The notes under the pieces were generated by a model. It was not told where the DNA came from and did no database searches. It saw only the letters and a program-made list of their open reading frames with translations. Below are positions 33,648 through 63,037 of a stretch of 64,000 nucleotides of DNA, one piece after another. The stretch is from Halorussus limi (lineage in GTDB: Archaea; Halobacteriota; Halobacteria; Halobacteriales; Haladaptataceae): NCBI RefSeq assembly GCF_023238205.1, contig NZ_CP096659.1, forward strand, positions 930,001 through 994,000, given 5' to 3'. How positions within the stretch are numbered: the stretch's first letter is position 1; each line of letters starts with the position of its first letter. The position numbers and the translations under genes are program-made.

Positions 33648-34730
33648 ATGAACCCGCTTCACGCCCGGTACCCGTTCCTCGCGGCGGCCCGCGAGAGCGT
33701 CCGCGAGGCCGACATCGGTCTCGTCGCCGTCGTGACGGGCGACGAGCGCCACCCCGCCGTCGAGCGCGGCGTCGAGCGGGTGCGCCGCGCGCTCGTCGAC
33801 GGGACGGTTCGTCCCGACCCGGACGGGGAGCGACGCTGGAGCACGCGCGCGGAACTGCTCTCGTATCCGGTCGCGCGCGTGCTGGTGTCGCTCGTGGACG
33901 CGCCCGGCGCGGTCGAGAAGTACGCCAGCGCCGAGGCCGACACCGCCTACGAGCGATTCACCGACGACTTCGAGAACCCCGACGACGGCCTGAAGTCCAC
34001 GGCCGACACCGCAATCACGCTCGACGCGCTCCTCGCGGAGTTCGACCTATCGGACGCGGTCCGGGAGACCGCCGCGGGCGACGGCTACCGCGTCGCCGTC
34101 GGGCGCTATCTCGCGCTCTCCTCGAACCTCGACGGCGAGTCTTGGACGCTCGCCACCCGGCAGTTGGCCGACGGGACCGTGAAAGTCTCCGAGGCCGAAC
34201 TCCACGAACTCCTCCGGGAGGCGGTCCGCCAGCGCGTCGCCGCGGGCCTGCCGACCGACGTGCCCGACGAGATTCGCGACGGTCTGACCGACGAGGTGGC
34301 CGAGTTGCAGGACACCTTCTCGGAAATCGACATCTCGCGGGACATCGACGTACTCGCGCCCGACTGCTTCCCGCCGTGCGTCGCCTCGCTGGTCGAGCGA
34401 GCGCAGGACGGCGAGAGTCTGGACGACCCCGCGGAGTTCGCACTGGTCGCGTTCCTGACCAGCGCCAACGCCGACACCGACGAACTGCTGGCGCTCTGCG
34501 GCGTGGACAGTGACACTCGCGCGAAGGCGGTCCGCTACCGGTCGAATCGGGTCGGCGACGAGTCGGGCGCCCAGTACGCGCCGCCATCCTGCGAGACGAT
34601 GGCGGCCTACGGCGAGTGTCCGGTCGCCGACGAGGCCGACCCGACGACCGACGCCCGCTGTGACTCTGTCTCCCACCCACTGGCCTACTACGAGGACGCA
34701 CTGGCCGCCGCTGAGAGCGCCGGAGACTGA
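33648..34730 (+). CDS. priL: DNA primase large subunit PriL
   Basis: 360 residues from the ATG at 33648 (MNPLHARYPFLAAARE). The N-terminal helical domain is followed by the C-terminal iron-sulfur domain with cysteines in FPPCVASL, LALCGV, APPSCETM and GECPV, the four-ligand 4Fe-4S pattern of archaeal and eukaryotic primases. PriL partners the catalytic PriS to make primers at the replication fork. The small subunit is not in this window. An in-frame open stretch extends far upstream (to 32862), but it crosses the divergent promoter and has no family match. Confidence 0.93.
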   Translation: MNPLHARYPFLAAARESVREADIGLVAVVTGDERHPAVERGVERVRRALVDGTVRPDPDGERRWSTRAELLSYPVARVLVSLVDAPGAVEKYASAEADTAYERFTDDFENPDDGLKSTADTAITLDALLAEFDLSDAVRETAAGDGYRVAVGRYLALSSNLDGESWTLATRQLADGTVKVSEAELHELLREAVRQRVAAGLPTDVPDEIRDGLTDEVAELQDTFSEIDISRDIDVLAPDCFPPCVASLVERAQDGESLDDPAEFALVAFLTSANADTDELLALCGVDSDTRAKAVRYRSNRVGDESGAQYAPPSCETMAAYGECPVADEADPTTDARCDSVSHPLAYYEDALAAAESAGD

Positions 34731-61545: not shown

Positions 61546-61617
61546 GTCGGAGCGTCGGCCGGGCGAGCGGTCGGCGAAACGCTGATACTCCCGGAGCGGC
61601 TACGTGAACTCGATGGA

Positions 61618-61662
61618 GTCCGCTCTCCGCACTTGGCGCTGGCAGTCGCCCGGAGAGCGGAC
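61618..61662 (+). ncRNA. Strong perfect-stem hairpin between rio1 and trpS, possible structured RNA
   Basis: GTCCGCTCTCCG (61618-61629) pairs without mismatch with CGGAGAGCGGAC (61651-61662). Inside, GGCG (61635) pairs with CGCC (61647), extending the stem with a 5-nt one-sided bulge (cactt). ACA follows the stem at once. It may be a terminator, an untranslated-leader structure of trpS, or an independent small RNA; only the fold is seen. Confidence 0.5.
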
Positions 61663-61771
61663 AGTGTCGTAACCGAGGGCGCACCGGCCTTCACCGGGCG
61701 TCCGAGGCGGCGGCGCTCACTCGCTTTCTCGCGCATCGACTTCCGAGCGCCAGCCACCCGTATCCAGACAC

Positions 61772-63037
61772 ATGGCAGAAGACACCACGACAGACGACAC
61801 CGCAACCGAAAACGCCGCGACGGACGACGCGACGCGAGACGCCGAGTTCACCGTCACCCCCGACACCGTCGAGGGCGACGTCGACTACCGCGAACTGCTC
61901 GAACGCTTCGGCGCGGACGAACTGACCGACGAACAGGTAGCCCGCTTCCCCGACCCGCACCCGATGGTTCGCCGGAAGGTGTTCTACGCGGGCCGGGACG
62001 TTGACAGGTTCCTCGACGCCGTAGAGCGTGGCTCTGCAGGCAACTCGACGCAGGTCGACGAGGCCGCGGAGTCGGGCGAGACCGTCTCGCTCGTGACAGG
62101 CGTCGGCCCCTCGGGACCGATGCACGTCGGCCACGCGATGCACTTCTACCACGCCAAGCACCTCCAAGAGCGGACCGGCGCGCACGTCTACGTCCCCGTG
62201 TCGGACGACGAGAAGTACTTCGGGAAGGACCTCTCGCTGGCCGAGGTCGGCGAGTACGCGCGCGAGAACCTGCGCGACCTGCTGGCAGTCGGCTTCGACC
62301 CCGAGCGAACCCGCATCGTGGTCGATACCGCCGACGCTGACGTGATATATCCGCTCGCGGCCCAGTTCGCCAAGCACGTCACCCAGTCGACGATGGAGGC
62401 GACGTATGGGCGACCCGACAACGTCGGGGCGTCGTTCTACCCCGCCGTCCAAATCGCCCATCTGCTCTTGCCCCAACTGGTCCACGGGCGACACGCCAGC
62501 CTCGTTCCCATCGCGGCCGACCAAGACCCCCACGTCCGCCTCGCGCGCGACGTTGCGGGGAAAGAGCGCTTCGACGTGGACAAGCCCGCGGCCCTGCTGA
62601 GCAAGTTCCTGCCGACGCTCGACGGGCCGGGGAAGATGAGCAGTTCGGACAGCGCGCCCGCCATCTACCTCACCGACGACCGCGAGACGGTCGAGGAGAA
62701 GGTCCAGACCCACGCCTACTCCGGCGGACGGTCGAGCCTCGACGCTCACCGCGAACACGGCGGCGCCCCCGAGGTGGACGTCGCCTACCAACTGCTCGCG
62801 TTCTTCTTCGAGGAGGACGACGCGACCCTCGATAGACTCGCTCGGGAGTACCGGGCGGGCGACCTCCTCAGCGGGGAACTCAAGGCCTACGCCGCCGAGA
62901 AAATCGGAGACCTCCTCGAAGGCCATCGGGAGCGCCGCGAGCGCATCGACGACCTCGAAGCCGAGTTCGAGAAGTACCGGCTCACCGACGACGAACGCGA
63001 GCGCGCGCTCCCGGAGGGCGTCGGTCGCTTCGACTGA
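61772..63037 (+). CDS. trpS: Tryptophanyl-tRNA synthetase
   Basis: 421 residues. A Thr/Asp-rich, disordered N-terminal stretch (about 1-28) precedes the archaeal TrpRS fold with the HIGH-type motif MHVGHAMHFYH (about 112) and KMSSSDSAP (about 289). VGPSGPMHVGH and ADQDPHVRLARDVAG are Trp-family specific. The class-I enzyme charges tRNA-Trp. Haloarchaea often have two TrpRS paralogues, and the acidic N-tail could mark one of them. The 226-nt gap upstream contains the hairpin at 61618-61662. Confidence 0.95.
   Translation: MAEDTTTDDTATENAATDDATRDAEFTVTPDTVEGDVDYRELLERFGADELTDEQVARFPDPHPMVRRKVFYAGRDVDRFLDAVERGSAGNSTQVDEAAESGETVSLVTGVGPSGPMHVGHAMHFYHAKHLQERTGAHVYVPVSDDEKYFGKDLSLAEVGEYARENLRDLLAVGFDPERTRIVVDTADADVIYPLAAQFAKHVTQSTMEATYGRPDNVGASFYPAVQIAHLLLPQLVHGRHASLVPIAADQDPHVRLARDVAGKERFDVDKPAALLSKFLPTLDGPGKMSSSDSAPAIYLTDDRETVEEKVQTHAYSGGRSSLDAHREHGGAPEVDVAYQLLAFFFEEDDATLDRLAREYRAGDLLSGELKAYAAEKIGDLLEGHRERRERIDDLEAEFEKYRLTDDERERALPEGVGRFD

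Follow-up and report, generated by a model that had tools for sequence, protein, structure and literature searches.

Leader-peptide attenuation is a textbook mechanism of gene regulation in bacteria. In the E. coli trpL and pheM-pheST systems, a short ORF with tandem codons for the cognate amino acid is combined with mutually exclusive hairpins positioned by the ribosome, and a cognate biosynthetic or synthetase gene lies downstream. To our knowledge, Archaea possess neither bacterial-type intrinsic terminators nor Rho. Attenuators with a Trp leader peptide before the TrpRS gene have been predicted for trpS and trpS2 of Streptomyces, and trpS2 of S. avermitilis is a case of a second TrpRS (PMC1262725); these systems are bacterial and are likened to the present one by description. 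In Haloferax volcanii, dRNA-seq revealed a uORF of 23 aa within the 5'-UTR (150-250 nt) of HVO_A0127, which encodes a tryptophan--tRNA ligase and has no separate TSS itself, and a 26-aa uORF precedes pheS, HVO_2948 (PMC4983044, Table 2). These uORFs are reported there as small proteins, the section that lists them analyses neither their codons nor structure nor regulation, and the string 'attenuat' is absent from the main text of that article. Among the open-licence full texts searched, none describing leader-peptide attenuation in an archaeon was found; older subscription papers were not covered by this search.

Here, we analyzed a window of 64,000 nucleotides from Halorussus limi, in which a gap of 226 bases separates rio1 (NCBIfam NF041310, 517 bits) from a tryptophanyl-tRNA synthetase gene. 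With a probability of about 80%, this gap contains a ribosome-mediated leader-peptide attenuator of the synthetase gene, trpS2, that senses charged tRNA-Trp (Table 1). TrpS2 scores 513 bits against NCBIfam PRK12285.1-4 (cut-off 478), and the genome carries a second, longer TrpRS-like gene (C1:1308192-1309661). The locus resembles trpL and pheM in that a short ORF repeats the codon of the very amino acid handled by the downstream gene product and in that two RNA structures exclude each other, one of them being broken by a stalled ribosome in our computations. It differs from them in its archaeal host, in a leader without Shine-Dalgarno sequence near the 5' end of the transcript, in Trp codons that lie in the 1:2 loop and not in a separate segment, and in a module, almost constant in length, that separates segment 2 from segment 3. 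The bacterial-type intrinsic terminator, a hairpin plus U run, is lacking and is replaced by a T-rich tract, which is segment 3 itself; no intrinsic-terminator-like site was found on the + strand.

Table 1. Features of the trpS2 leader locus (positions in the window)
Feature	Coordinates	Strand	Basis or remark
Putative promoter of the leader transcript, BRE-like CGAAAC and degenerate TATA-like GCTGATAC	61575..61588	+	sequence
Leader ORF, ATG to TAA, 19 codons, unannotated, MESALRTWRWQSPGERTVS followed by stop	61613..61672	+	sequence, comparison
Leader Trp codons	61634-61636, 61640-61642	+	in P1 loop
Leader stop codon TAA	61670-61672	+	sequence
Segment 1, 5' arm of P1, GTCCGCTCTCCG	61618..61629	+	fold, pair exchanges, covariation
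Segment 2, 3' arm of P1, CGGAGAGCGGAC; partner segment 1 or alternatively segment 3	61651..61662	+	pairing counts, permutations, ribosome model
Conserved module of near-fixed length, P2 enclosing central hairpin P3	61663..61717	+	covariation
P2 helix, AGTGTCG with CGGCGCT	61663-61669 with 61711-61717	+	first three pairs in 104/104 loci
P3 central hairpin	61684-61697	+	
Segment 3, pyrimidine tract rich in T, CACTCGCTTTCTC; in its free state the proposed site of termination/processing	61718..61730	+	pairing; resembles Haloferax terminators
2:3 helix, 9 bp	61652-61660 with 61721-61729	+	
TrpS2, accessory tryptophanyl-tRNA synthetase, 421 aa, regulated gene	61772..63037	+	NCBIfam PRK12285.1-4

The initial annotation, which was made from the sequence of the window, had drawn attention to a perfect 12-bp hairpin between rio1 and trpS. 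This description is exact, as the arms of P1 pair at 12 of 12 positions, and the inner 4-bp stem (GGCG/CGCC, 61635-61638 with 61647-61650) that it placed after a one-sided bulge, here of 5 nt, is present in the predicted fold. By eye, this inner stem is retained in alignment A1 within the genus of the window and not elsewhere. An ACA said to follow the hairpin directly in fact lies at 61661-61663, so that its first two bases still belong to the arm; the arm itself is followed by AGTGTCG. We cannot agree that the regularity of the hairpin excludes an accidental origin: the window contains two perfect inverted repeats of 12 bp with a loop of at most 30, at 33840 and at 61618, and the counts in six first-order Markov resamples of it were 0, 0, 2, 0, 1 and 2. 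The only other such repeat in the window, at 33840, has a loop of 20. For the fold of 61590-61690, z was -2.83 and 2 of 200 shuffles were equally good. Taken alone, the hairpin is no rarer than expected by chance, and its significance derives from the overlapping ORF with Trp codons and from the comparative evidence. Both arms of P1 are codons of this leader ORF, and the two Trp codons lie inside the loop. The ORF had escaped the initial annotation and lends support to one of the options offered there, an attenuator-like leader for trpS.

The leader ORF was then compared across the order. Matches to the TrpS2 protein of the window at E <= 1e-40 were obtained in 119 of 293 genomes of Halobacteriales. 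The survey covered the upstream DNA of 110 places, of which 109 could be oriented (L135 had no tblastn match); ten places in genus g3, with identities of about 40%, were omitted, together with matches that were partial or broken (those in G011, G012 and G065 and the second of G208). DNA of the rio1-trpS gap was matched in 19 of 59 relatives. A small upstream ORF with adjacent or near-adjacent Trp codons (W.?W) was present at 101 of the 109 trpS2 loci, starting with ATG in 93 cases and with GTG in eight; a few of these leaders are atypical (L042, L056, L117, L129). Of the eight loci that lack W.?W, six still have the hairpin by eye, and their ORF contains one Trp codon or terminates early. At L046 (G017) and L076 (G013), which belong to the same genus, trpS2 has a different upstream region and no element. 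Of two plasmid-borne copies, the one in Halobaculum lipolyticum has no leader element and the one in Natrinema zhouii has, by eye, the one-Trp form. Between the start and the 3' arm, TGG occurs 228 times in frame versus 18 and 7 times in the other frames, and the distance from start to arm keeps a single reading phase in 86 of 99 cases. The frame in which the 3' arm is read varies with the lineage, giving ERTVS in the genus of the window and ADS in most others from the same bases, and the Trp codons are in frame in both cases. Some leaders of the longer TrpRS, TrpS1, end directly past the Trp codons (MTPALAGIARWRWR, then stop). These comparisons argue that what is conserved is the codons and the RNA and not the peptide, at least at its C-terminus.

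A promoter-like box lies about 25-38 nt 5' of the leader ATG, and by eye CGAAAC and a T/A-rich box are similarly placed at most of the 101 leader loci. This position fits a start that is leaderless or nearly so, which is the usual mode in haloarchaea and accounts for 72% in Hfx. volcanii according to the part of the dRNA-seq study consulted (PMC4983044). The tyrS gene of the window has no small ORF of 6-45 aa within 400 nt upstream.

The initial annotation had proposed to look for covariation of the hairpin in relatives, and compensatory changes were indeed found. A paired 5' arm (1:2) was found for the 3' arm in 105 of 109 trpS2 loci, and pairs d2-d9 of P1 are formed in 102-105 of these 105. 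Exchanges are numerous and affect both arms, e.g., between GC and AT (92/13), CG, TA and GC (84/12/8) and TA, CG and GC (50/42/7). The covariation score of P1 in alignment A1 (61 trpS2 loci) was 0.210 compared with 0.115 +- 0.007 for shuffled alignments, none of 500 shuffles reached it, and it was far above slid versions. Beyond the 3' arm, the AGT that begins P2 pairs with a GCT 52-54 bases further on; counted by eye, about 98 of 104 loci have this spacing, and the outliers lie at 43-66. In alignment A2 (63 sequences, other targets included), covariation was 0.220 versus 0.129 (0/500 shuffles). The central motif of P3 is conserved as GGCNTMACC. Its loop, GGC-N-T-A/C-ACC in columns 35-44 of A2, is strongly conserved irrespective of the target gene, which suggests a binding site or tertiary contact. 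Mutual information across the 54-nt module was too noisy to resolve inner pairs other than those of P2 and P3, and RNAalifold, run without ribosum scoring, produced only a weak fold for it.

Segment 2 has a second possible partner in the tract. The tract contains 34% T compared with 17% in the window and TTC in 100 of 104 loci; at least four T are found in just 22 of 104, so it is not a classic strong terminator. A 2:3 helix of at least 8 contiguous bp is possible in 86 of 104 loci, with a mean of 8.31 versus 5.81 for shuffled tracts, and four loci have none of at least 6 bp. Pairing of each arm with its own tract was better than permuted pairings in 1999 of 2000 permutations. In three loci, arm and tract have changed jointly at one position (TA replacing CG or TG). 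The same pairings recurred at 33 loci outside the trpS2 set that were unused in discovery, with 2:3 of at least 8 bp in 26 and 1:2 in all 33. Because segment 2 pairs with either segment 1 or segment 3, the helices 1:2 and 2:3 compete and are mutually exclusive. When the RNA was folded to 61745 without a ribosome, 1:2 formed and tract bases 61725-61730 were free; in the full 5' region to 61790, also without a ribosome, both helices were about equally likely. A modelled ribosome on the first Trp codon made 1:2 give way to 2:3 and covered the tract, whereas a ribosome placed on the second Trp codon left the outer 6 bp of 1:2 in place.

These results suggest the following mechanism. As judged from the promoter position, transcription would start just before or at the leader ATG, and the leader would therefore be translated first. 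With ample Trp-tRNA, the ribosome would clear both Trp codons, 1:2 would re-form behind it or the ribosome, having reached the stop codon, would occupy segment 2; either way, the tract would remain single-stranded. When Trp-tRNA is scarce, the ribosome would stall on the first Trp codon and cover segment 1, upon which segment 2 would pair with segment 3 and bury the tract. The P2/P3 module with its near-fixed length probably keeps segments 2 and 3 in register. A free tract would lead to premature termination, of the aCPSF1/FttA type at T stretches, or to cleavage, and a buried tract to read-through. Termination or cleavage is proposed here because intergenic terminators of Haloferax are T stretches with TC, and an inserted T5C stopped 95% of transcripts in the experiments consulted (PMC7237163); the trpS2 tract is milder than these T stretches. 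What is seen in silico comprises the ORF and the Trp codons of the leader, the cognate targets, both helices and their mutual exclusion, and the sensing part and the RNA architecture are well supported at that level. We infer that the transcript is terminated or cleaved at the free tract and that stalling thus turns the synthetase on. Read as an attenuator, the element works like the bacterial trp type but without a bacterial intrinsic terminator.

To learn where else the module occurs, we searched with an RNA model of the whole element (R1) and with one from which the Trp-codon part was left out (R2). R1 had matches at E <= 0.01 in 154 of 293 genomes, although the weakest matches probably represent noise, and R2 at E <= 0.001 in 133 of 293, with a single copy in the genome of the window. 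Among the matches listed in a class-wide search, only genomes of the same order appeared. Away from the surveyed trpS2 genes, 39 model-matched places were sampled. The following gene encodes TrpS1 in 21 of them (leader beginning MASTSTDWRWRGPG) and SerRS in three, one of them partial, and is trpD at the head of an operon in one (MLSAFRSWSWRWYRSGKRTVS, then stop); others are GNAT acetyltransferases (five), a methyltransferase (two), an ABC transporter (one) and a trpS2 remnant (one, downstream of the L157 module), and in five places nothing was recognised. L175 and L185-L188, which have no matching target, were taken as false or decayed module matches. The leaders before SerRS are Ser-rich, e.g., those beginning MESTSRSRSQSSFW and MESTSRSRSQSSFWEVDS. 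Hence the codons in the P1 loop follow the target, Trp or Ser, while the module stays the same. At L156, L165, L166, L176, L177, L160, L161 and L164, the genes behind the module encode GNAT acetyltransferases, of which two bear a weak resemblance to bleomycin acetyltransferases, as well as a methyltransferase and an ABC exporter similar to MsbA. Repeated codons of an obvious cognate amino acid are absent from the leaders of these genes, and these copies are possibly drug-sensing.

The module precedes trpD in G042 only, and none of the best 30 trpD loci had a Trp leader within the 420 nt scanned upstream. Small ORFs with at least two W were found upstream in six of these 30; four are the same string, MEWVWADLNCRPPPCQGGVITN, one is a longer variant and one is unrelated. 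The MEWVWADLNCRPPPCQGGVITN ORFs are, by eye, apparently antisense to a tRNA gene. At L243, L233, L224 and L228, which have no Trp leader, a conserved repeat resembling GTACATT..GTACATTGG lies just before trpD and is perhaps an operator.

The uORF reported in Hfx. volcanii may belong to the same family. The leader of Hfx. mediterranei, MVSTSHANCWRWHAFREVDSIAV, has 23 aa and thus the length of the HVO_A0127 uORF, whose mass (2743) and pI (5.4) are only a loose fit to the leader family. For pheS, matches were present in 58 of 59 genomes and 50 loci were examined, in 32 of which a small upstream ORF closes with a run rich in Phe, for instance GFGFFF. In the genome of the window this leader is MPSEPPLGGSARQPRHQRAGFGFFFAS, followed by a stop (L287, C1 ~1292309-1292392). 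Neither R1 nor R2 recovered the Phe-rich leaders, and the pheS leader, apparently another haloarchaeal attenuator, therefore seems to have a different RNA architecture.

The same sensing part would serve if control were post-transcriptional, with stalling altering cleavage or stability of the mRNA or translation of trpS2 without premature termination. The tract is only moderately T-rich, and single-stranded pyrimidine tracts could equally be cleavage sites. Of the alternatives, this is the likeliest one, but we consider it rather unlikely. Against its translational form, the distance from the tract to the aligned start of trpS2 ranges from 19 to 253 nt (median 69), and because of this variation direct masking of the start is unlikely. 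Moreover, translational coupling in Hfx. volcanii is little or none above about 30 nt according to the portion of a review consulted (PMC12548453), and the leader stop lies 99 nt from trpS here. Direct binding of a ligand or tRNA by the RNA, as in a T-box or riboswitch and with an incidental ORF, would account for the high conservation of P2/P3 in spacing (52-54 nt from A to T) and in central motif. However, one module serves Ser, Trp and other targets with only the P1-loop codons changing, the start codon and the frame of the Trp codons are conserved, and the window has no Rfam T-box or riboswitch match at the gathering score, all of which makes such a sensor very improbable.

The two remaining options of the initial annotation fared worse. 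As a transcription terminator of rio1, the element would be suitably located about 70 nt behind that gene, but a promoter-like box stands between them and the + strand lacks an intrinsic-terminator-like site. Furthermore, the element travels with TrpRS and its other targets also where the upstream gene differs; on plasmid pHME505 of Hfx. mediterranei it lies behind an integrase gene and not behind rio1. We give this function hardly any credence. Even less can be said for a box H/ACA-like guide RNA: the ACA triplet does overlap the 3' foot of the stem, but the 12-bp stem is uninterrupted, the fold has no pseudouridylation pocket, and arms and loop encode a conserved ORF. Rfam gave no match at the gathering score and none on the + strand even at E <= 1, the sole match of a permissive scan (E = 0.8) being on the other strand.

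Given the attenuator reading of the trpS2 leader, we tentatively propose, with slightly less than even confidence, that the conserved module is a portable archaeal attenuation platform with interchangeable P1-loop codons, Trp for two types of TrpRS and the trp operon and Ser for SerRS, and that compounds which stall ribosomes may be the signal for the copies in front of GNAT, methyltransferase and ABC genes. If the unrelated pheS leader is added, ribosome-mediated attenuation via archaeal T-tract termination would then be general in Halobacteria. Direct testing is feasible in Haloferax volcanii and Hfx. mediterranei. If the element works as proposed, coupling of ribosome and RNA polymerase would control archaeal genes through a different termination machinery, since Archaea are, as far as we know, devoid of intrinsic terminators and Rho.
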